Of a DNA stretch of 64,000 bases, positions 33,649 to 49,973 are shown piece after piece. This DNA is from Anaerolineae bacterium (GTDB lineage: Bacteria > Chloroflexota > Anaerolineae > Promineifilales > Promineifilaceae): contig JAMLHW010000012.1 in the NCBI GenBank assembly GCA_023954475.1, forward strand, positions 62,001 through 126,000. The letters are read 5' to 3'. Positions within the stretch are counted from its first letter, which is position 1. Each line of letters starts with the position of its first letter. The position numbers and the translations under genes are program-made. Below the pieces are notes generated by a model that had not been told where the DNA came from, did not search any database, and saw only the letters and a program-made list of their open reading frames with translations.

Positions 33649-36600
33649 TTAGCTTGCGCTGATCAACTTGAGGACGCGCTCGGCTTCCGCTTTGGCGATG
33701 GCGCTGTCGGTGTGGGCGAGGAAGGCGCGCAGGGTGGCAACGACTTCCGGGGACCCGAAGCGGCGCAGGTGAGCGGCGGCCAGATAGCGGATGGGGGCCT
33801 GGTCGTCGGCGAGGGCGACGCACAGCCGCGCCACGTTGGCAGGCGACGCCAGCTTGCCCCACGCGTTGACCTGCTTCATGCGCTCGCTAAAGCTGCCGCT
33901 GAGTGGTTGGTCGGGAAAGGCTGGTGGCGGGAGTGAAACAGCGGCGGTAACGGGCGGCGTGTTGGTTATTCTAGCTGTTGTTGTAGTCGTGGCATTTGCT
34001 ACAGTAGCTACTGAACGTCGAGCAGAGCGGGGTCGACCTTCTACAATAGCGATTTCGCTTGAATTTAGGCTGTATACCTCATAAATAAATTTGTCAATCT
34101 CCAGCTCTAGCTTGGATGTATCTTGACTGGGTGCACTGGCTTTGAGGTTGATAATCCGTTCGACCAACGAAACAACTCTGTCTTGCGTATCTTGTTTGGG
34201 GATACGAATAGGGATTTTCAGCAAAGGGGCCTTGTCCACTTGAAAGTTGTGGCCTTGCATTTTTCCTCTATGCCTGAGCCAGAATTCAACCAGCCTTGAG
34301 TTAAGCAATCCTACTAGGAACTTCATGCTTGCTCTGTCGGTCTTGATCACCATGTATGCTTGGGAAACGTAACAGTCAAACGCTGTGTAGGTAAATGTCG
34401 GCTGTTTGCACTTCCTCAACGACACGACTTTTGTCCCGACAAAGAAATGCTGCCTTCGACTTCTATGGAGTCCATATGGTCGGTTGTCAGACGTAATTAC
34501 TGACTTGAAGCGATCAAGATGGCGCTTTATATTAGGATATGGTCGGATTGCGCTGGGGTTTTTGAACTGGGAATCAGTGTATATCACCCATTGAGAATTA
34601 CTCGAGTTGCCGTAGTATCTATCCAGTTCAGCTGATGTATAGTATGGGCAAACCAGTTTCTCTTCCAGACGACTCAAGTTCAAAGCCGCTTTTTCGCGAT
34701 CTGATATCACAAATATCCCATCACCGATCTTCACCTGGCCACCAAGAATTTGTGCTGACTTCTTGTTCACGAAATCTTGATGCACATCTATTCCTGTAGC
34801 TATTTCCCCCTGCGTGAATTCGAAATTTGCCATAGTTGTCAGTTTCCGCAGAACCTCTTCAATCTCTCCGTCTGCAAATACAAATACGCCTTTCGATAAT
34901 CGGCGTCTGTCGAACACCGGCATAAGGTACTCACAATACGGATTCGCATTTCCCGCCAGCAATTGAAGAACATCGGTGAAGTCCGAATCCTTTGACGTCA
35001 ACCTTCGATAATCGAATTGGTATTTCTCGGGACTATTGATGCGCTTGGCAATCAGCACCATAGTCTGGATTCCAGCGCTTTCAAATATCTTGTAGTCACC
35101 AAAATCTAGGAACTGCACTAACCTAGCTGACTTGGCTATCTGCCTACGCAGAATCGACGCTCCATGATTAGTAACCCAGTTGTTTGTAGCAATGAAAGTT
35201 AAGACTCCAGTATCCCGTTTAACTATGTCAAGGCACGCACAAGCGAAAAAGTACCAAATGTCCATCTTGCCTTGATAGTAAGGTGAATCTCGAAGGCCGT
35301 TAAATGCTTCACGGTAAGTGTATTCCTTGATGTACGGTGGATTGCCAATCGCAATATCAAAGCCATTATCAATGCCAAACATCCACTCTGGGTCAAAAAA
35401 GTCGGCGTGGGCATTCTGGTCATACGGATCCCAGTTGGCAAGCTGGCGCGTCGTCGTGTTGGGAAAGCCGTCCTTGCGCAACAGGTCGCCAATCTCCTGC
35501 CGCAGTTGAGCGTCCTGCTCGCGGTATTTCAGCTTTGTCCTGGGTGTGCGCGCCACAAAGTGCCGCCGCCGCACCTCTGCCAGCTCGCGTTCCTTTGCGG
35601 TAATGGCGGGGTTGCGCAGGCTCATCTGCGCCGGCTTGTCAAGCCCGAGCAGCGTATTGGCCGCCACAAATTTCGTCTCCAGGTTGGGCAGTGGCAAAAT
35701 GCCGCGATTGTCCGCCGCGTCGTCAATGCGCTGATCGACGACGAGCGAGATAAAGAAGCGCAGCTTGGCGATCTGCACCGCAATCGGTTGAATATCGACC
35801 CCGTAAATGCAATTTTCAATCAGATAGAGCTTGCGCCCATAGTCGAGTTCGTTGCGCGCAAACGCCGCTTCCGTCTCCTCAATTTTCTGCTCCAACTCCT
35901 CCGTCACCTGCCGCCGCAGCTTGCTGTCGGGTATGTTGGCCGTGTCGGCAATCGCTTGGCGAATGGGCGCGATTTGGCGCTCCTTCCAACGCTCGTTGCG
36001 CGGGTCGAGCTTGCCCAGGATAAAGACGAGCTTGTGCAAAATCCCCATCGGGAACGCCCCCGACCCACACGCCGGGTCGAGAATTTTGACGTTGTCGATG
36101 GCGACAACCAGCTTGCTGACTTCAGCCGCGCTGAACTGGTGCGGCTCCTCGTTATAGGCAAACAGGTGGCGCAGCCGCGCTTCGGCATCGGCCGCCCCCG
36201 CCAACTGCGTCTCCAAATACGCCAACAGCGACTCATCGACCATGTAGTTGACGATTTCGCGCGGCGTGTAGAACGATCCCGTCTGCTTGCGGGCAGTCGT
36301 CCCCGTCTCCGGATTGTACGCCGCCAGCAGGTTTTCAAACACCTTGCCCAGCAGCTCCGGGTCCAGGGCGATCTCTTCCTCGATGGGCGTGTTCTCGTTG
36401 ATGGTGAATTTGTAGCGGTTGAGCGTGTGGATCAGGCCGCGCACCTGGTAGCGCTTGCCGCTGGTGCCGTACGTGTCGTTGAGGTCGATGGTGTGCTCGT
36501 CGCCAAAAACAGCGCGTCCGGCACACGCAGCGGATTGTCGTCACGGTCAGAAAAGCCGTCGACGCGCAGCACGCGCGTGCTGTCGTCTTTATCGCGCTTG

Positions 36601-37724
36601 TCGAGACATTCAAACAGGCCACCGTTGAGAAACGGAATAGTCGCCAGCCGTTCAAGCACGGCATCGGCATCGCGGAAGAGCCGCTCGTAGCGGTAGAGGT
36701 TGGTGATGTTGTAATGTTGCCGCCCCTGCCCGCGAAATTTGCGCCGGTCGGGTTTGTCGGCGTTGTTCATCTCCTGATTGAGCGTGGCAAAGAACAGGTT
36801 TTGCAAAATCGCCTTGTAGTAGGTGCTGTCGTCGTCCCACGTCAACCAGCTATCGAGCTTGCTTTTGCGAAACAGGTCGTCGGCAACCAGCCCCTTCTCC
36901 TTGAGAAACCAGACGAAGATGAGGCGCGTAATCAGCCGAATGACACTGGTGGCGTTGCGCGTCTCCACATCGTCACCCGCCCCTTCCGGAAACACCACCT
37001 CCTGCAACGCCCAAAAATACCAGTTGGCGATCTCTTTGAAGAAGCGTTTGTTGAGTTCGGAGCTGTCGAGCGTCTGCTGCCAGGCGCGGTGCAGCTCGAC
37101 AAAGTTGGTGAAGCCGTGGACGCGCTCCAGTTCCGCCAGCGAGAGGTCAAACAAAATCTCGATGTGCGCCCGATGCGGATCCGCCACGACGATGTCTTTG
37201 ATCAGCGTCACCTTCTCCAGCACGTCCTTGCTGCGGTCGCGCTTGTGCAGGCGGCGGTTGATAATCGACAGCGTCAGCGTGTCACTGTGCTGAAAGAGCA
37301 GCAGGACGGGCATGGGAAACAGCTTGTTGATTTCGCGGGTCGCCTGTGCAAGCTGGGTGCGCGTGTAGCGCTCACCCGTCAACCCAACCGCCAGCACCAG
37401 ATACGACTCCATTCTAGCGTTGTCAATCACCTTACCTGTACCATCGAAAAGCGATAGCTGGGCCGCCTGGCGAATGTCGTCACCAGTAAGCTGGAAAAGC
37501 AGGTGGGCTTGCTGCCAGTCGCTGGCCAGCAGCTTGTCGCGGTTGCAGCGTTGCTCTGCGTCAAACTGGTCGAGAAAGCTGGCGGCGCTAAACGGCGCGT
37601 CGATGGTGCGCTCGCTTTCATACCCCAACACCTGCCACAGCCGCAGGGCGCTGTCGCGCAGCGTGCCGTGCTGGAAGTTGCGCAGTGCCTGTTTGATGTC
37701 CTGTTTGATCACTTCTTTACTCAT
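33649..37724 (-). CDS. Eco57I-like N6-adenine DNA methyltransferase with target-recognition domain and HEAT tail (one frameshift)
   Basis: Two minus-strand frames (37724-36432 and 36444-33649) join into one protein of about 1,358 residues. The break is an A5 tract at 36505-36509 (plus strand); one more A gives ALFFGDEHTIDLNDTYGTSG, linking the halves. The N-terminal third is the helical region usual in Eco57I/PglX-like enzymes. The methylase core has motif I ILDPACGSGAFPMGIL and motif IV IAIGNPPYI (NPPY, adenine-N6). A TaqI-like recognition region follows (LLNSRLVEFWLRHRGKMQGH). The last 60 residues are a HEAT-like repeat (AAHLRRFGSPEVVATLRAFL), an unusual addition. The PLD-helicase gene is immediately upstream, so the pair is a restriction-modification system. 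Confidence 0.82.
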
Positions 37725-37735
37725 GAGATACTGCT

Positions 37736-37768
37736 AGAAACCGAGTTTCTCGTAGAAACTCGGTTTCT
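37736..37768. repeat. Intercistronic perfect hairpin in the restriction-modification operon
   Basis: AGAAACCGAGTTTC (37736-37749) and its exact reverse complement GAAACTCGGTTTCT (37755-37768) are separated by 5 bases. The hairpin fills most of the 53-bp gap between the helicase and methylase genes. There is no U-tract beyond it on the transcribed strand. Elements of the AGAAACCGRGTTTCT type are, to my knowledge, common dispersed repeats in some bacterial genomes, so this may be a mobile palindrome or an RNA-stabilising stem. Confidence 0.8.
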
Positions 37769-37777
37769 CTTGGTTGG

Positions 37778-40700
37778 CTACTTGATGACCAGCCAGGTGA
37801 TCAGCTCAAATTCTGTTTCGCTGGTCGCCTGTTCGGCGCGAGTCGGCAGCAACGCACCGCGCCCCGTCTGTAGCGTCGCCAACGCCCGTTTACGGAAGGT
37901 GTTTTCGATGGAACGCACCGCCTGCGACAGCAGCGCATCGTAATGGGACATGTCGCTTCCATTGTCGGTCTGCCGGTCAAACAGGTGGCACAACTGCTGG
38001 TGCGGTGCGGCGCTTTCGGCACACAGCAGACGGTACATCTCCAAAATCTGCTTCGGCTGGGCAAAAGTGTAGCGCACGATGCGGTCATCGCGCACGTAGA
38101 CAAGAAAGTAGGGTTGTAGCGGGTTGAAGGTACTGCTCTCGGCGGCGATGTCGGGCTGACGCAAACAGTAGATGACGCCGGGGGTAATGGTTGGATAGGC
38201 GGGGTCGGTCGACACGACGGCGTACAGGCCGAACGGCGCTTCTTCGAGCAGCTTGCGGTTGGCCTCGATGTACTTGCTCAACTCGATGCGGAAGTCGTCG
38301 AGCGTGAATTCGTTGAGCGCGACGCTTTCGTTGAAATCTTCGAGATCGAGGATTTCATCTTTCAGGCGCAACAACTGCTTGTCGCGGTAGCGCAGGTCGT
38401 CTTCGATCAGGTCGCGCACGTCCTGCAGCAGGTTGTCCTCCTGCGTGGCGGCGATGTCGACCAGTGCCATGCGCGCTTCGACGCGGTTCTTGAGCTTGAT
38501 GTATTTGTTGAGGTCGGGCGTCGGCCAGAAGTTGACGAGCTGGACCGTTTCGTTGGGGGAGCCGATGCGGTCGATTCGGCCGAAGCGCTGGATGATGCGC
38601 ACGGGGTTCCAGTGAATGTCATAGTTGACTAAATAGTCGCAATCCTGCAAATTCTGCCCTTCCGAAATACAGTCGGTGGCGATCAGCAGGTCGATTTCAC
38701 CGCCCTGCGGCATCGACGGGATTTGCGCACGCCGCTTAGCGTAAGGGGCGAAGTTGGTCAGAATTTGGTTAAAGCGGCCGTCGCCAAACGTCGTCTTGTC
38801 CTTGCCTGAACCGCCCGTCACCAGGGCAACGTGAATACCCAACTCGTTGCGTACCCAGTCGCGCAAATGATCGTAGAGATAGATGGCCGTATCGGCAAAC
38901 GCGGTGAAGACGAGCACCTTGCGGTTGGGGTTACCGTGCTTGTTGGTGGTCGGCTGCTCCACTTTGGCGCGGATCAACTGCTTTAATTCGGCCAGCTTGG
39001 CATCGTGTTCGGGGCGCACCGAATCAGCCAATACAGCGAGCAGATGGAGCTGCTGTTTGTCGGCCCGCAAATCTTGGAGCCAAGTGTCAACATCGAGATG
39101 GACCATCTTGAAGGTCAGCTTCTTGCCCACTTGCAACGCGGCCTGCAGTTCTTCATCGTCGACATCCTCGACCTCCAGCTCGTCAAAGTCAATCTCAGGA
39201 TTGTCGCTGCGGTACTGCTTGAAGCGCTCGATGCGCTGCTCCAGCTCCTCGATTTTGGCAACGGTGCGCTGCATGGTGATGGCAAAGGCATGGACGGAGC
39301 TTTCCAGCCGCTTCAAGAAGTTGACCTTCATCATGCCGATCAGGTAATGCTCGCGCTGCTGCTGGGTAAAGTTTTCGATTTGGTCGACTTCATATTGTTC
39401 AGCATGTTGTGGCAGCACGTAGGCCGACGGGTTGAAGAGTGAAAGGCGGTAGTTGGAGATTTCGTCGTTGAGCTTATCATACGATAGAAAGCGTTCTTTC
39501 AGATCAATCTTTGGATAGTTTGAAACGGGCTTGAGCCGTTCGGGAAAGCCTCCCAGAGTGCTGATCGTCTCCGGGTAAAAGCGTTGGATATGGCGGCGCG
39601 AGCGGGCGATGGTCAACTCATCCAGCAATTTGAAGAATGCGGAGCTGAGGTCTTCCAACAGGTCATTGACCTTGCGCTCGTTCTTTTTTGCCCAGTTGGT
39701 AAAGCTGCGTTGGGCAGTAGCCAGTGTGTCGTTCAGGCTGCGCACGCCAATCGTTTCGCTAAATACATTGTCTTTGCCCTCGGTCAAAAAGTAGATTTGG
39801 TTGCGCAGGTCACGCAGATTATTGTTGACGGGGGTGGCGGAAAGCAGCAGGACGCGCGTCTTGATGCCGCTCTGAATGACGTCCTCCATCAACCGTTCGT
39901 AGCGGCTTTTGCGGATGCGGTTGCCGTCTTCATCGCGCTTGCCTTTGGTATTGTTGCGGAAGTTGTGCGACTCGTCGATGACAATCAGGTCGTAGTTGCC
40001 CCAATTGAGCGTTTCGAGATTGATGTCGCCGGCAAAGCCGCGCTCGCGGTTGAGATCGGTGTGCGACAGGACGGTATACGCGAAGCGGTCGGCGACAAAG
40101 GGGTTGAGTTGGCTGTTGTTTTGTGCCTGATAGACAGTCCAATTTTCGCGGAGCTTCTTGGGACACAGCACGAGCACCCGATAGTTGAGCAGCTCAAAAT
40201 ATTTGATGATCGCCAGCGCTTCGTATGTTTTCCCCAGTCCGACGCTGTCAGCGATGATGCAGCCGTTGTGGCGCAGGATTTTGTTGATGGCTCCCTTGAC
40301 GCCGTCTTTTTGGAACTCGAAGAGCTGGTTCCAGATCGCGCTATCAGTGAGGTGTACATTTTCATCGAGCAGGCCGCCTCGCTCCTGGTCGAGAAGGTAG
40401 CGCTCAAAGATATGGAATAGGGTTTTGTAGTATATGAACTGAGGCGCATTGTCACGATAGAGCTTCGCCAGGTAGGTGAGTACGTCGTCGGTAACGTCTT
40501 TAACCAGGTCGTCATTATCCCACAGTTCGTTGAACCAACGCTTGAGGTCTTCGCGGTCGCGGCGGCTGTCGACTTCGAGGTTGAGTTCAATGTTGTTGCC
40601 GTTTTGGCTGAGGCCCAAGCCACGCACGGTGAAATTGGAGCTGCCAAGAATGACATCGGCAACACCATTATTGTCGATGTGATAGAGCTTGCCATGAAGC

Positions 40701-41071
40701 AGATTGGACTGGCGCATCGAGCGGATCTGTACTTTGGATTTGATCCATGCGGCGCACTGTTTGGCAACGAGTTTTTGCTGTAATTTGTTGGTTAGCTTAA
40801 GGCCATCGTCGGTGATTTCGAATGCTTTGGAGTCAGTTCGGTTGGGATCGAGGGATTTGATGAAGCGCGGCTCGCCAAACAGGAAGCGGAGTTCTTCGAT
40901 CGAGTCGAGTTCATTTTGAAGGGCAGCATAGGCATAGATGGTGAAATAGGCAGAGACGAAAGAGAGTTGAGAACCGGATGTTATTTTTTGCCTAAGAAAA
41001 TCACCAACCGTACCACGATCCATGTTATCCCGAATGCCTGAATTGTGTTGCGATAAGGGCGAGTCTGTCAT
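37778..41071 (-). CDS. PLD-nuclease plus SNF2-type helicase, restriction subunit
   Basis: The 1,097-residue protein begins with a phospholipase-D-like nuclease domain: HGKLYHI (His126, Lys128) and GSSNFTVRG (about 143-151) form one HKD half-site. A superfamily 2 helicase follows, with Walker A IIADSVGLGKTYEAL, Walker B VIDESHNFRN, motif III LLLSATPVNN, and a C-terminal helicase domain with TDCISEGQNLQ and IIQRFGRIDRIGS. A helical insert lies between the lobes. PLD-helicase fusions act as ATP-dependent DNA-cleaving subunits (as in SauUSI). Here it precedes an adenine methylase, implying a protected-self, cut-foreign system close to type I/ISP logic but with a PLD nuclease. The gene contains only one TCGGCCGA copy (near 38575). 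Confidence 0.88.
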   Translation of the reverse strand: MTDSPLSQHNSGIRDNMDRGTVGDFLRQKITSGSQLSFVSAYFTIYAYAALQNELDSIEELRFLFGEPRFIKSLDPNRTDSKAFEITDDGLKLTNKLQQKLVAKQCAAWIKSKVQIRSMRQSNLLHGKLYHIDNNGVADVILGSSNFTVRGLGLSQNGNNIELNLEVDSRRDREDLKRWFNELWDNDDLVKDVTDDVLTYLAKLYRDNAPQFIYYKTLFHIFERYLLDQERGGLLDENVHLTDSAIWNQLFEFQKDGVKGAINKILRHNGCIIADSVGLGKTYEALAIIKYFELLNYRVLVLCPKKLRENWTVYQAQNNSQLNPFVADRFAYTVLSHTDLNRERGFAGDINLETLNWGNYDLIVIDESHNFRNNTKGKRDEDGNRIRKSRYERLMEDVIQSGIKTRVLLLSATPVNNNLRDLRNQIYFLTEGKDNVFSETIGVRSLNDTLATAQRSFTNWAKKNERKVNDLLEDLSSAFFKLLDELTIARSRRHIQRFYPETISTLGGFPERLKPVSNYPKIDLKERFLSYDKLNDEISNYRLSLFNPSAYVLPQHAEQYEVDQIENFTQQQREHYLIGMMKVNFLKRLESSVHAFAITMQRTVAKIEELEQRIERFKQYRSDNPEIDFDELEVEDVDDEELQAALQVGKKLTFKMVHLDVDTWLQDLRADKQQLHLLAVLADSVRPEHDAKLAELKQLIRAKVEQPTTNKHGNPNRKVLVFTAFADTAIYLYDHLRDWVRNELGIHVALVTGGSGKDKTTFGDGRFNQILTNFAPYAKRRAQIPSMPQGGEIDLLIATDCISEGQNLQDCDYLVNYDIHWNPVRIIQRFGRIDRIGSPNETVQLVNFWPTPDLNKYIKLKNRVEARMALVDIAATQEDNLLQDVRDLIEDDLRYRDKQLLRLKDEILDLEDFNESVALNEFTLDDFRIELSKYIEANRKLLEEAPFGLYAVVSTDPAYPTITPGVIYCLRQPDIAAESSTFNPLQPYFLVYVRDDRIVRYTFAQPKQILEMYRLLCAESAAPHQQLCHLFDRQTDNGSDMSHYDALLSQAVRSIENTFRKRALATLQTGRGALLPTRAEQATSETEFELITWLVIK

Positions 41072-43890: not shown

Positions 43891-45915
43891 TTAGCGCAAC
43901 AGTGCGTACAATTGATCGCTAAGGGGCACGCCGGTGATGAGTGACGCGGTGGTGTAAAATCGGCCGAAATCCTCCCACCCGATTTGCGCCAGCGCCGCCG
44001 TCACCGCCACGCCACGTGGCAACAGTGCATGAAAACGCCCCATTTGCAGCCGCTCAGCCAACAACCACGCTAGCTTGCGGGCTGCCTGCTCCGCCGCTAG
44101 TGCGTTCCAGGCGGGCAACAATGCCAACGGCTCATGCAAATAGAGACAAAACTCATTAGTGTACTCCGCCGCATGTGTCCCCAAAAGCGCTGCCAGCAAT
44201 TCTCCCCAAATCGTGCCGCAGAAATGAAACAGCCACATGCCGCTCTCCGTGCGCAACGTCGCCATTTGGCCCGGCTTAAACAGGAGTTCGCGGGCCACTG
44301 CCTGTGTCACGGCAAACGGTATGGCCGCATAAGTAGTTCGATAACGCAATACTTCCTGCGGTGCCTGCCCCTCAGCGGACGCCAGCCCAAATCGGTTTCC
44401 GTCATGCCAGACGACGCGCTGCGTTTTGCCGCCAAACAATACCAGTGTCCCAACGTCCGGTTTGCGATCCGTGTAGGCGATGGTGCGATTGGTGTACGCA
44501 TCGACCGCTGCCAGTGCCAGCACATCCGCGCCAATGTTACTGTAAATTTCGTGACGGTCGATCAGTTCTTGCAGCCGTGCAGCCGGCTTCCAGTCACCGA
44601 TGCGCCCGCTCTGCAAATAGTCGGTGAAAACCAGTTCAGCTAAGATGGTGCGAATGGCATCGCTGCTGACGGAGGTAGGTGCCAGGCGGCGCACGTCGGC
44701 GTAGCGCACGCTGCCGGTGGGGCTTTGCTTGATCAGACTAAAGATTTGCTGGACAAGAATGGACGGACGAAAGGCGTAAGACGCAGCGTCCGCAGAGTCA
44801 GACTGCGGCGGCGTGTTTGCCAGTGCCAACAGCCCACTGAAACGTGCCCATTCGGCCGATGATTTAGGCAAACACAAGACGCTGGTTTCGGCCGAACGGC
44901 GGCTGCCGCGCCCAATACGCTGCAAGAACGATGTGAGTGTGGGTGGTGCGCCTAGCAACACCACATCCTCGACGCTTCCAATGTCGATGCCCAGCTCCAG
45001 CGTCGATGTCGTCACACAAACAGCGACCGATGCGGCGGCAAATTCTGTCTCGACTTCATAGCGCAGCCTGGCGTCGAGATTGCCGTAATGAACGAATACC
45101 TGCGCTTCATGCTGCATATTTTGGCGTAGATAAGCCGCCGTTCGCTCCACTTCGTCACGGGTATTGCAAAACAGCAGTGTCTTGCGGGCAGCACGGTCGG
45201 CAAGCCGGTCAACCAATTCATCGAGGTCGTAAAGCGGCGCGATGTCGGCCACAATGGCTCGTTGGCCCGGCACCTCGATCACGACGCCGTTGTTCAGATA
45301 TCGCTGCGCCACACCCGCCGGGTCGGGAACGGTAGCAGAAAGCAGCACGCGTTGTAGGTTGACGCAGTCGGGGGTGGCGTAGTGGCGAATGCGCTCAATG
45401 CGCGGTAGCAGGCAGCGCAGATGGTCACCGCGCGGCGTGTTGTCGAACAGGTGAACCTCGTCGATGATGACAGCTTGCAGAGGAATGAAGAGGCGCGGGT
45501 TACGGGTGAGCAGGGAATCGGCCGATTCCGGAGTCGTGATCAGTACACACGGCGTTCCCTTGAGTGCTGCCACATCTCCTGTTTTCATCGCCAAAGCTAT
45601 GCCGCTATCCGTCAGATGGTCACGCAAGCGGTCGTATAAGTTGCGCACCAGGGCACGTGTCGGGCAGATGTAGAGCAAAGTCAACGTCGCTGTGGGTGCG
45701 GTCAATTGCACCCACAGTCTTTCCACGAGCGGTGCTACCACTGCTTCCGTTTTGCCCGCTGCTGTGGTTGCGACGACCAGTGCATCGCGGCCTGCCAGAA
45801 GCGGCGGAATCGTGCGCCGTTGCACCGTTGTCAAGTTGCCGTGGCGGCTGAAAAACAGGGGCCAAGTGTGGAATAATTGTGCCTTGACGGCTTGGGCAGC
45901 GCGGTGAGCAGACAT
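43891..45915 (-). CDS. Lhr/BrxH-like superfamily 2 helicase of a four-gene operon
   Basis: The 674-residue protein has both RecA lobes: Q-motif region TTVQRRTIPPLLAGRDAL, Walker A ATTAAGKTEAVV, Walker B VIIDEVHLFDN (DEVH box), motif III VLLSATVPDP, motif IV LLFCNTRDEVERT, motif V TSTLELGIDIGSVE and motif VI QRIGRGSRR. About 290 C-terminal residues follow (winged-helix and Lhr-like region). It most resembles Lhr-type helicases associated with BREX (BrxHI/BrxHII). It is the last gene of a tight operon, 12 bp after a P-loop ATPase gene. Four TCGGCCGA copies suggest it is long resident in this genome. Confidence 0.85.
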   Translation of the reverse strand: MSAHRAAQAVKAQLFHTWPLFFSRHGNLTTVQRRTIPPLLAGRDALVVATTAAGKTEAVVAPLVERLWVQLTAPTATLTLLYICPTRALVRNLYDRLRDHLTDSGIALAMKTGDVAALKGTPCVLITTPESADSLLTRNPRLFIPLQAVIIDEVHLFDNTPRGDHLRCLLPRIERIRHYATPDCVNLQRVLLSATVPDPAGVAQRYLNNGVVIEVPGQRAIVADIAPLYDLDELVDRLADRAARKTLLFCNTRDEVERTAAYLRQNMQHEAQVFVHYGNLDARLRYEVETEFAAASVAVCVTTSTLELGIDIGSVEDVVLLGAPPTLTSFLQRIGRGSRRSAETSVLCLPKSSAEWARFSGLLALANTPPQSDSADAASYAFRPSILVQQIFSLIKQSPTGSVRYADVRRLAPTSVSSDAIRTILAELVFTDYLQSGRIGDWKPAARLQELIDRHEIYSNIGADVLALAAVDAYTNRTIAYTDRKPDVGTLVLFGGKTQRVVWHDGNRFGLASAEGQAPQEVLRYRTTYAAIPFAVTQAVARELLFKPGQMATLRTESGMWLFHFCGTIWGELLAALLGTHAAEYTNEFCLYLHEPLALLPAWNALAAEQAARKLAWLLAERLQMGRFHALLPRGVAVTAALAQIGWEDFGRFYTTASLITGVPLSDQLYALLR

Positions 45916-45927
45916 CAGGCCGCAGGT

Positions 45928-47313
45928 TTAGCGTATGTGTGCACGCAATTCGTCAAGCAAATGGGCGACATCGTAATCGGGATACAGATAGAGCAAGTCG
46001 AACAACTCGATGGCCAGACGCACGGCTTGCCGCATCGACAGCCGCTCGTTGCGCAGCCCGTAAGCCAGCAATTCGGCCGACGCTCTGCGCACTTGTTTTT
46101 GCCGCTCTCCACTCTCATAGGCGTACGCCTGCGCATGATATACCAGTACCTGCAGCAGGAATTGACTGACTTCTTGCGGCGTGACCTGCGGATCGAGGTG
46201 GAAAATCTGCTCGTCCGTCAACCATTGCTGCAGCGGCATTCGGTTGTCGCTGCGCGTGACGGTAAACAAGAAGAACAGCCCCTGCCCCTGGTCATAGGCA
46301 ATGGGATAGTCGCGCCAGCGGTGTTGGGGGAAATTCTCGGCTTGCAGTAAATTTTGCTGCCCGCGCAAGGCGGCGTAAATCACCGCCTGAAAAAAGGTCG
46401 ACGCTTTGGGCCGCTGGTACGGGTAGAGCAGCGAATAGCTCTCAGCTTCGTCGACGAGCAAGCACAGCCCGCCATAGCCGTTGAGCCGCGCTAGTGTACT
46501 GACACCAGTCAGCAGATAAGCGATTTGGCGGGCGTTGTGGCCCACTTTATAGATCGAGGGGAATTTGACGCCGCGTGGCATCCCGCGCAGTGAGCGTGGT
46601 TTGCGCCCGCCTGCCAGCCAGTGCATCCACGTCTGGCGGCGGCGGGTGGCACTGATATTACTCAACATAGTGAGGCCAAGAACCAGCGGATCGATTTGAG
46701 CCGGTGACAGATCACGCAGTTGACCAGGGATGATGACGGAGTCGGCCGATTGTGTTAACAGGCGTGACAATCCCCGCTCGTCCGTATCGGGATAGCGCAG
46801 GTGGGTCATCGCTTCGCGGTAGACGGCAAAACCGCGATGCGGCGGCAACTCCTGCAGGTCAAGGCTGATCGCGGCTACGAGGAAGTTGCGTTGCAGCGCC
46901 TCATGGGCGGCCAGTTCGACAAGATGGCTCTTGCCAAAGCCGTATTCGCCTACAACTGCTCGCACTGCCCCGCCGTCCCGCTGGGTCTGTTCCAGCGCCT
47001 GCCGCAAACTAGCTTGTTCGGGAGCCAGTCCGATGGTCAGTTCGCTAACGTGTTGCGCCGGCGCGATGCCGACACGCAGGGCTTCGATCAGTTGCCGTGC
47101 CGCCAGTTGGTCGCGTGGCATCGGCGATGGTGGGATAAACGGGGTATGGTGGGGTTGGGGAATAGTAGGAAGCAATTCGGCCGAAAACTCCGCACTCGGT
47201 CGCCGAAAGCGCAGCCCGTTTTCGAACCGCACCAGCCACTCATAGCCGTTGCGGTAGGTTGCCAGCACCTGACCGCGACCAAATTGAGGGTGTTCAACCT
47301 GTTGACCAATCAT
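45928..47313 (-). CDS. BrxD-like P-loop ATPase with N-terminal DUF3553-like domain
   Basis: I start at ATG 47313 (MIGQQVEHPQFGRGQVLATY); the frame could also open with TTG 47328. Residues 1-45 look like a small SH3-like DUF3553 module (QFGRGQVLATYRNGYEWLVR). The rest is a DUF2791/BrxD-type ATPase: Walker A VVGEYGFGKSHLVELA, Walker B GLCLLVDEAESYSLL, and a sensor-like FLFTVTRSDNR. In BREX type 2-like systems BrxD pairs with the BrxHI helicase, and here the helicase gene is directly downstream (12 bp). The second ATPase gene is 23 bp upstream. These ATPases probably form a complex on DNA; the role is inferred. Confidence 0.8.
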   Translation of the reverse strand: MIGQQVEHPQFGRGQVLATYRNGYEWLVRFENGLRFRRPSAEFSAELLPTIPQPHHTPFIPPSPMPRDQLAARQLIEALRVGIAPAQHVSELTIGLAPEQASLRQALEQTQRDGGAVRAVVGEYGFGKSHLVELAAHEALQRNFLVAAISLDLQELPPHRGFAVYREAMTHLRYPDTDERGLSRLLTQSADSVIIPGQLRDLSPAQIDPLVLGLTMLSNISATRRRQTWMHWLAGGRKPRSLRGMPRGVKFPSIYKVGHNARQIAYLLTGVSTLARLNGYGGLCLLVDEAESYSLLYPYQRPKASTFFQAVIYAALRGQQNLLQAENFPQHRWRDYPIAYDQGQGLFFLFTVTRSDNRMPLQQWLTDEQIFHLDPQVTPQEVSQFLLQVLVYHAQAYAYESGERQKQVRRASAELLAYGLRNERLSMRQAVRLAIELFDLLYLYPDYDVAHLLDELRAHIR

Positions 47314-47335
47314 CTTTGGGAAACACAATCGGGGA

Positions 47336-48619
47336 TCAATACGGCGCCGTCTCGCCGCCGCTCAGCTCATCCACCTGTCCGCGCAAAAGTGCCTGTGCTT
47401 CCGCCTCGGTGATAAGATACTCATCGCCGTAATGCTGCCGCGATAGCTCGACGACAAACGATTTGACAAACAGACGACGGTGACTGACGTCGAGAAAAAC
47501 GTCGCGGGCGACGTTGGCCAGAATGTTGGCGTTTGCCGCCTGAATTGCGGGATCAAGCTGCGTCTCGAACGCCGCTTCGTAAATCGGTACCAGTTTCTCT
47601 CCGATCGCCAGCAGTAAATCGTCTTCATCGAGGTCGAGGTGTTCGAGGTTGATGAGTGGGCTGAAATGGTTGATGTGACTGAAGCGCCCGGGCGCACGCA
47701 CACGCTGTTGTAGCGCAGGATATTTGGGTACGATGTCGTTAATAAATTGCGGCGGCACGGCGTAAACGAACAGGGCACCGGGGAGATCTTCGCGCGTGCG
47801 GTCGATGACTTCGCGCAGCGTGTCGGTCGCCAGCTTTTCCGCTTTGGCACCAACGCTGGCCATGCGGTCCACTTCGTCAAATAGTAAGATGAGACCGGTG
47901 TATGATAGGGCGCGGATGATCTGGCACAGCGAGCGCAACATGCGGAATGCATTCGGCCGATTGATTTTTCCCGTCACCCCTATCTCGCGCAGAATTTGAG
48001 TGTCGTCGGGCGTCGTCGATTCGCCCATCAACCAGCGCGACAGCGATTCGACGCGTTCATCCTGTCCCCGCAATACGCTTTCGCAATAGCCGATGACGGC
48101 CGCCTTGTACGCCGGGCTGTCGATGGACGTGGCTTCGAGCGTATCGATCAAGCCACGGTAGAGTGGATTGGTCAGTGTTTCTGCGCCAAGAGGTTGACTG
48201 GTGATGCGTTCCAGCGTTCCTTCCAGGAAACGGGTCAGGCCGGATTCATCGGTAATCGATTCGACCGATTCATGCCATATGAGGTTGTTGGCCACTGCCT
48301 GGTACACGGCGCGCTGGTCGTTGTACGGTGTTTCAGTTGGGCTGAGGTCAACCTTGACTACGGCAAACCCACGTTCCCAGGCGATATCGCGCAGACAATA
48401 CAAGAAGTGCGATTTGCCGCTGCCATAGTCACCGATCACCATTTTGTATGCCGCGCCACCGTCTTGTAGATACGTCGAGAGGTAAAAGCGGTCGAGCGCA
48501 TCCAGAATTGACTGATTGCCGGCATTGAAATACTGGATGCCGCGTGAGGGCGGCGTGCCGAAGCTGCCGAGCGTTTCGATGATGTGTCGTGCAAGGGGTT
48601 GGGAAATGTCAAGGGCCAT
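47336..48619 (-). CDS. BrxD-like P-loop ATPase (DUF2791)
   Basis: The 427-residue protein is a second DUF2791-type ATPase. It has N-terminal HIIETLGSFGTPPSRGIQYF, Walker A VIGDYGSGKSHFLYCL, Walker B LILLFDEVDRMASVG, and a sensor segment GALFVYAVPPQFIND. It shares layout but little detailed sequence with the neighbouring 45928-47313 ATPase, so the two are diverged relatives rather than a recent duplication. It lies 17 bp after the operon's first gene. The set of two such ATPases plus an Lhr-like helicase, without methylase or PglZ, is not a standard BREX arrangement as far as I can recall. Confidence 0.82.
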   Translation of the reverse strand: MALDISQPLARHIIETLGSFGTPPSRGIQYFNAGNQSILDALDRFYLSTYLQDGGAAYKMVIGDYGSGKSHFLYCLRDIAWERGFAVVKVDLSPTETPYNDQRAVYQAVANNLIWHESVESITDESGLTRFLEGTLERITSQPLGAETLTNPLYRGLIDTLEATSIDSPAYKAAVIGYCESVLRGQDERVESLSRWLMGESTTPDDTQILREIGVTGKINRPNAFRMLRSLCQIIRALSYTGLILLFDEVDRMASVGAKAEKLATDTLREVIDRTREDLPGALFVYAVPPQFINDIVPKYPALQQRVRAPGRFSHINHFSPLINLEHLDLDEDDLLLAIGEKLVPIYEAAFETQLDPAIQAANANILANVARDVFLDVSHRRLFVKSFVVELSRQHYGDEYLITEAEAQALLRGQVDELSGGETAPY

Positions 48620-48636
48620 AGCCGGGTGCCGCTCGA

Positions 48637-49491
48637 TCAGTCGAAGGTGATGTCGCTATAGTATTGTCCGTCGGTTGCTGAATCGGGAATCCACATGCTC
48701 TTGCTGGACTGATCAGCCTGGCTCTTGGTGGCAACGCCCAATCTGAGCCGCAATTTCTCGTCGGCGACCGTTAACGTCAATGTTTCCGTTTCGCGTAAAA
48801 TTACCAAGTCACGAACAAACAGCACCCGGTCGTAATCTTTGAACGTGCTACGTGACGGCGCGTTCCAAAAACGGGCGCTCTGACGCCCCAACGTGACCTC
48901 GCTGTGTAGCTCGACGATGTTGATGCGCCCACCCTGCGGGCGCTGCTTGCGTTTGTCGATGCATTTTTGCCATGCGTCGTGTAACTCTTTCAGAAAGGCG
49001 GGCGCGTCGATGGTCCGGCTGACAATGCGCTTGACTTGCTGATCATATGCTTTGAGAATGCCGGTCAGCGACAGCGGAATCGGTCGTGTCAACATTTCCT
49101 TGCCGTATTGCCACTGTCCTTTGCGGGCGGCAATATTGATGGCAAAGGTGAGCATTCCCACGCTCAACACAGGCGGACGGCCTGTGACGGTCTCACCTCG
49201 TGCGGCGAACGTGCTGCGCAACTCTTTGGCAAAGTCAAACGCCAGATTGTCGAGCGCGGTTTGCGTCTCGCTGCCAAATGCAGTTAGTGCAATGTCCAGT
49301 TCCGGGCTGTCGATAGTGGTGGCGGCAGTTTCAAGCTTGGTCAGCGTTTTGTGCATGGGCAATGCATCGGCCGAATCGGCGGCAGTCAGCTTTTCGGCCG
49401 ATTTCAACGCACTGATTACGGTGCGCAAAGCTTTGTATTGTGGGTCGAGTGCCTGTAAGGCTAGTTGCAATTGGGCGCGTGTCTCTTTCAT
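48637..49491 (-). CDS. Uncharacterised first protein of the BrxD/helicase operon
   Basis: I start at ATG 49491 (MKETRAQLQLALQALDPQYK); earlier in-frame starts add a Pro-rich, unlikely leader. The 284-residue product has a helical, coiled-coil-like N-terminal part (about 1-100), a middle with VGMLTFAINIAARKGQWQYG and KELHDAWQKCIDKRKQRPQG, and a beta-rich C-terminus (RVLFVRDLVILRETETLTLT, ending GQYYSDITFD). I do not recognise the family. As first gene of a tight four-gene operon it may be the sensor or specificity factor. Two TCGGCCGA copies lie in its N-terminal region. Confidence 0.7.
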   Translation of the reverse strand: MKETRAQLQLALQALDPQYKALRTVISALKSAEKLTAADSADALPMHKTLTKLETAATTIDSPELDIALTAFGSETQTALDNLAFDFAKELRSTFAARGETVTGRPPVLSVGMLTFAINIAARKGQWQYGKEMLTRPIPLSLTGILKAYDQQVKRIVSRTIDAPAFLKELHDAWQKCIDKRKQRPQGGRINIVELHSEVTLGRQSARFWNAPSRSTFKDYDRVLFVRDLVILRETETLTLTVADEKLRLRLGVATKSQADQSSKSMWIPDSATDGQYYSDITFD

Positions 49492-49973
49492 AATTAATCT
49501 GTTCTTTATCGTTTGGTTTGTTGTGGGTGGTTTCTGCCCCGGCAGGAACATCAAACTGCTTTTAAATCACGTTTATGCCGTTGCTCTTGTTGAGTGTGCG
49601 CCAGTCATATCAAGCAAAATAGGCAAAGTATCACTAGCAGAGTATATCACCACGCTTACAAATTGGCAGGTATGTTGTGCGGTAGCTGGCAATTCGAAAC
49701 ACTTTTTTCTAGAGAATTACGCCGTAAAAACACGCTTTTGATGAGGGAAATTTGTCATTCTTCATCAGTCGAATGCTGAAATTGATGGCAAAAACCGGCA
49801 AATTTCTCGCTGAGATTCTTTGATGGTGCAAAATTTCTCATTGATACTCATGTCATTACCTCTGGAAGGAGTGTCTAATCATGCACACATATGAAAACCA
49901 TTGTACTTCGGGTAAGTTCGTTGATGCATCTGACGCTGATTCCGGGCATTGACAAACAGCTTGAAGGCACGTC
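49492..49973. other. Upstream region of the BrxD/helicase operon
   Basis: This stretch of about 480 bp probably contains the operon promoter; I see no strong hexamers. A 28-codon minus-strand frame at 49765-49851 (MSINEKFCTIKESQREICRF start) is preceded by AGAGGT and could be a leader peptide, but it is short. AAATTTCTC recurs twice near 49800 and 49832. No other gene is supported. Confidence 0.35.

Follow-up and report, generated by a model that had tools for sequence, protein, structure and literature searches.

We describe a four-gene operon, found in a 64,000-nucleotide stretch of Anaerolineae DNA (the window), that is probably a defence module against invaders, most likely phage. Its leading protein (g1) would bind DNA, two BrxD-like ATPases (g2 and g3) would load a helicase (g4), and genes inserted in the operons of relatives would provide back-up; this mechanism is inferred, without any experiment. 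The defence role is well supported by context and remains untested. The component families are known; what is new, relative to the literature searched and the family databases, is the way they are combined, together with the leading protein and the pairing of two ATPases. We found the four-gene set undescribed beside the papers on BREX-2, Shango and ARMADA, with subscription papers and preprints mostly not covered, and a description elsewhere is not excluded. A first-pass annotation had suggested an undescribed defence or DNA-processing module, and conservation, inserted defence genes and patchy presence all support that suggestion.

Operon organization in the window

The operon consists of four co-directional genes on the minus strand in the order g1-g2-g3-g4, with gaps of 17, 22 and 12 bp. 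The leading gene, g1 (48637..49491), encodes 284 aa; g2 (47336..48619) encodes a 427-aa BrxD/SngB-like AAA+ ATPase of ORC/Cdc6 type; g3 (45928..47313) encodes a second, distinct BrxD-like ATPase of 461 aa from its ATG, with a TTG at 47328 as another possible start; and g4 (43891..45915) encodes a 674-aa SF2 helicase resembling BrxHI, SngC and Lhr. The ORF coordinates and a motif check bore out the first-pass description of the operon, its gaps, P-loops and helicase motifs. The Walker B motifs that it called "DEAD-like" are present, but they actually read LLFDEVDR and LLVDEAES. All junctions of the window's own copy are empty, with no inserted genes. A weak promoter-like site (49641..49669, minus strand) lies about 150 bp upstream of g1, with 9 of 12 consensus matches and a TG before the second hexamer; its function is not evidenced. 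Rfam and tRNA scans of the window returned nothing.

Beside the operon, also on the minus strand, a cluster at 33649-41071 is a candidate restriction-type system. It encodes an Eco57I-type methylase (931 aa), a 430-aa protein with a weak DUF4391 match, and a 1097-aa HKD/PLD and SNF2 helicase protein (PADLOC C3a139 "HKD+Snf2," 399 bits). The methylase makes the modification gene of the previously noted neighbouring restriction-modification system real.

The ATPase pair and the helicase

Both g2 and g3 satisfy the criterion for PF10923 (Pfam BrxC_BrxD, formerly DUF2791), scoring 162.6 and 98 bits, above the curated cut-off of 22.2, with intact Walker motifs. Neither satisfies the NCBIfam BREX_BrxD equivalog (134 and 74 bits versus a cut-off of 350). 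In PADLOC, g2 scores 130 bits as BrxD and 100 bits as Shango SngB. It is the most conserved subunit, with 68-81% identity across the close family, and its Walker A (GDYGSGKSH) and Walker B (LLFDEVDR) motifs are both kept in the wide family. The Walker A and B motifs of both ATPases and the SF2 motifs of the helicase are kept in every family member that covers those regions. The g3 proteins form a single clade (support 97/98.7), and g2 and g3 stem from one ancient split. Local duplication of the pair in the window's lineage was rejected (p-AU 0.0001).

The g3 model has an ORC/Cdc6-like fold that aligns to archaeal ORC2 and Cdc6/Orc1 structures with Z of 13-15 (14.7 to A. pernix ORC2). Helicase loading by these initiators is our working analogy for the module, although the module ATPases are not replication initiators and their partner is an Lhr-type SF2 helicase, not MCM. 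The N terminus of g3 (residues 1-45; 47179..47313, minus strand) is a small beta domain, possibly Tudor/SH3-like, with strands predicted at 5-8, 12-19, 25-30 and 35-39; it is missing from the g3 of two plasmid-borne copies described below, those of Desulfomonile and Aulosira. An earlier DUF3553 label found no support here, since this region gives merely a sub-threshold match to PcrA_UvrD_tudor (12.8 bits), though small beta structure is indeed predicted.

The helicase g4 has the Pfam domains DEAD and Helicase_C and scores 243 bits as BrxHI and 219 bits as Shango SngC in PADLOC. It shares an SF2 core with Lhr and the ligase-associated DEXH helicases (TIGR04121 and Lhr structures); residues 21-362 match TIGR04121 at 167 bits, far under the family cut-off of 850. 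Unlike those helicases, g4 has no ligase partner and always occurs in this operon.

The leading protein

Searches of Pfam, NCBIfam and PADLOC gave g1 no family match, yet it is conserved across loci, in keeping with its first-pass designation as a new leading protein. Its structural model is confident (pLDDT 92) and predicts a bundle of three long helices at the N terminus, then a beta layer and, at the C terminus, a winged-helix-like domain. The C-terminal part aligns weakly to the winged-helix domains of ORC1 and MukF (Z 5.6-6.5), a range in which chance matches are possible. Going by the model, g1 is a probable DNA-binding or scaffold subunit; the weakness of these alignments counts against the DNA-binding role. 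No conserved catalytic set is apparent in an alignment of 25 g1 sequences, in which D228 is the sole fully conserved acidic residue. A PDB sequence search with g1 and g2 gave nothing relevant, and Foldseek of g1 against the PDB and viral models gave no match at E 0.001 or better. Neither plasmids, searched with the window's g1, nor viral contigs, searched with g1, yielded a match. Profile comparison of g1 with a plasmid SngA carrying TerB_N, TerB and TerB_C found no homology.

Distribution and co-inheritance

Among 97 relatives, 19 carry g1 (53-66% identity), 18 of them in the same family, plus one decayed remnant. Species genomes, scanned by a pattern-based method, yielded 32 loci, every one of them in Chloroflexota and some from the same genomes as the relatives. 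Wherever the sequence is long enough, at about 30 Chloroflexota loci, the order is g1-g2-g3-g4 on one strand; the g1-g2 junction is visible in 30 loci, g2-g3 in 26 and g3-g4 in 16. The genes on either side of the operon are mostly different at each locus, and presence is patchy inside genera. In G044, a decayed remnant (L040, 8318-9065) consists of adjoining g1 and g4 fragments, the ATPases being gone.

Profiles of g3, and then of g1, reach other Chloroflexota families, with all four genes in G120, G309, G264 and G220, and g1-g2-g3 without an adjacent g4 in G259 and G229. ATPase pairs of the g2-g3 type without adjacent g4 occur at L091, L087 and L090 (Chloroflexota genomes G259, G229 and G160), the first two with g1. 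No close g4 was found elsewhere in G229 or G160, and G259 has only a weaker helicase match. These loci perhaps represent a helicase-less form.

Beyond Chloroflexota, phyla were sampled only through plasmid records and the one species-genome scan. When plasmids were searched with the divergent ATPases, Desulfomonile tiedjei pDESTI.01 and plasmid 3 of the cyanobacterium Aulosira laxa emerged. Both keep the gene order, with a leader of 279 aa, then two ATPases of BREX type, then a DEAD helicase. The two leaders share 38% identity, and the g1 profile recognises both, with HMM E values of 1e-7 and 7e-12 (the set searched was small) and hhalign probabilities of 80 and 92%. These copies show that the system also occurs outside Chloroflexota. 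A search for the neighbourhood in other genomes had been the proposed check of the first-pass reading, and the four genes do recur across phyla, with the g1 family always leading.

The trees of g1, g2, g3 and g4 are congruent, each recovering the groups (G264, G220), (Desulfomonile, Aulosira), (G309, with G259 where present) and (G120, the window, Caldilineaceae). Trees of the same shape imply that the genes travel together.

Genes inserted in the operon junctions

Gaps longer than 250 bp are found at 2 of 30 g1/g2 junctions, 10 of 26 g2/g3 junctions and 10 of 16 g3/g4 junctions. The inserts include a C5-cytosine methylase with an unknown 457-aa protein (L053), GmrSD with a PIN protein (L063), RusA with an AHJR-like REase (L055), an OLD-like AAA with DUF4276, twice, together with HEPN and nucleotidyltransferase (L057), a CARF-PDDEXK nuclease (L058), an OLD-like AAA with PIN (L069) and a RelE-like toxin (L046). 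Type II cassettes sit in the g3/g4 junction at L046 (13190-15234), L048 (12637-14498) and L055 (13646-15230); those of L046 and L048, and the same families in L055, pair a REase with an N6/N4 methylase whose strand is opposite to the operon. One g3/g4 insert (L041, 4717-5430) resembles 2-phosphosulfolactate phosphatase and is not defence-like. The identified inserts are mostly of defence type. Auxiliary or back-up effectors reported from BREX loci likewise include GmrSD, OLD-TOPRIM, OLD-PIN, HEPN-MNT and REases (PMC12839542). Linkage with known defence genes is thus repeated across genomes, as the first-pass annotation had proposed to check, with restriction-modification, GmrSD, OLD-like, HEPN-MNT, CARF-nuclease, PIN and toxin-antitoxin genes inside the operons of relatives; enrichment over the genome background was not computed.

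Relation to Shango and type 2 BREX

Type 2 BREX (Pgl) resembles the module in its BrxD-BrxHI pair, in which an SF2 Ski2/Lhr-like helicase comes directly after a PF10923 ATPase. In contrast, the module operon is without PglZ, PglX, PglW and BrxC, and it has a new leader, two ATPases and a separate helicase clade. Shango (SngA-SngB-SngC) is as close a comparator as BREX-2. It too has a leader, then a BrxD-like ATPase, then a BrxHI-like helicase in one operon in a defence context, but the module has g1 in place of the TerB_N/TerB/TerB_C protein SngA and always has the second distinct ATPase, g3.

Could the module be a form of Shango in which SngA has diverged and SngB has been duplicated? The roles do come in the same order, and the PADLOC matches of g2 to SngB and of g4 to SngC would fit. 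However, TerB_N, TerB and TerB_C are lacking, g1 is unlike a SngA, and none of the module-positive genomes scanned, that of the window included, has TerB_C. The helicase tree speaks against this idea as well, since the g4 proteins form one group, split with 100/100 support from the group that holds BREX BrxHI and Shango SngC, whose members are nearer to each other than either is to the g4 clade. We therefore regard a Shango variant as unlikely. The same split sets the module apart as a third lineage next to BREX-2 and Shango; since no root was inferred for the trees, the order of origin among the three is left unresolved. The module had been called "BREX-derived"; with the helicases outside both BREX-2 and Shango, "kin of BREX-2 and Shango" is the better description.

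Proposed function

Several lines of context lead us to read the module as defence. Its kin, the BREX-2 BrxD-BrxHI pair and Shango, are defence systems, and Shango lowers phage plating in experiments (PMC10250203). The constant gene order and congruent trees, the defence genes inserted in the operon, and the patchy presence, unconserved flanks, plasmid copies and decayed remnant all point in the same direction. The core has no recognisable nuclease, methylase or PglZ. How might it act? A loader role has been proposed for BrxD-BrxHI (PMC12839542), and this proposal, with the ORC/Cdc6-like fold of g3, underlies our loader reading. We infer that g1 would bind DNA through its winged-helix-like C-terminal domain and nucleate assembly. 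On the g1-bound DNA, g2 and g3 would form a mixed ORC/Cdc6-like ATPase assembly that loads or activates g4. The helicase would then translocate on and unwind the invading DNA, keeping it from being replicated or expressed. Extra or back-up effectors, acting by cleavage or abortive responses, would come from the inserted restriction, OLD-like, HEPN and toxin-antitoxin genes.

Some points weigh against a defence module. Self/non-self discrimination is unexplained, as the core is without a methylase or recognised sensor; moreover, the phosphatase-like insert is not defence-like, and at some divergent loci g1-g2-g3 have no g4 beside them. A broader hypothesis, to which we give even odds, is that the module represents a third, unnamed branch of immunity built on ORC/Cdc6-type ATPases and Lhr-type helicases, in which a new DNA-binding leader is joined by a dedicated ORC-like pair to load the helicase on invader DNA, and in which the junctions dock interchangeable effector cassettes. 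The mechanism of BrxD-BrxHI and SngB-SngC is unsettled. A stripped-down relative without PglX, PglZ or TerB and with two distinct ORC-like ATPases would isolate the machinery that they have in common, so that the helicase-loading idea could be put to a direct test. With members in several Chloroflexota families, one cyanobacterium and Desulfomonile, the family is broad, and more candidate effectors can readily be drawn from the genes in its junctions.

The main targets of the module may instead be plasmids or other mobile DNA, not phage, or it may serve the mobile element that carries it. Both copies found outside Chloroflexota are on plasmids, and plasmid clearance would fit a DNA helicase mechanism. 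However, sampling outside Chloroflexota drew on a plasmid collection and is biased for that reason, and the inserts are the genes that phage-defence loci carry, so we give this possibility little weight. There is only a slight chance that the operon is a DNA repair or replication-restart module: its ATPases are ORC/Cdc6-like and its Lhr-type helicase is akin to repair helicases, but it is patchy within genera, resides on plasmids, decays and carries inserted defence genes.

Independence from BREX loci

The proposed defence module had been called self-contained, and conservation of the four genes together across phyla, their congruent trees and the lack of a detectable PglZ in the window's genome sustain that description. 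PglZ (PF08665) has no match in this genome, which is 97.9% complete, and is missing from 12 of the 13 module-positive genomes in the scanned set; the lone PglZ, in G015, is on another contig. At the locus itself, the four operon genes include no match to the PglX methylase, BrxC/PglY or PglW. Because the window's genome is without detectable PglZ or TerB_C, the module is neither canonical BREX nor Shango.

On the conjugative plasmid 3 of Aulosira laxa (L097, 372-12266), the module lies directly downstream of PglZ-like (alkaline-phosphatase-domain), BrxD-like and BrxHI-like genes. In the trees, this BREX BrxD and BrxHI fall outside the module's groups. Constant co-location with a full BREX set would have refuted the first-pass reading, but BREX adjacency was seen only this once. 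That the module is an accessory or detached part of BREX, cooperating with a BREX set elsewhere in the genome, is very improbable: the BrxD-BrxHI kinship and the Aulosira neighbourhood would suit it, but not the missing PglZ or the separate clades of Aulosira's own BREX genes.

On a plasmid of Deinococcus psychrotolerans (L098, 5047-18669), an 851-aa LRV/HEAT-repeat protein and a protein of 451 aa precede a BrxD-BrxHI pair. Downstream, another leader is followed by a second ATPase and helicase pair that is nearly identical. This arrangement is possibly another variant.
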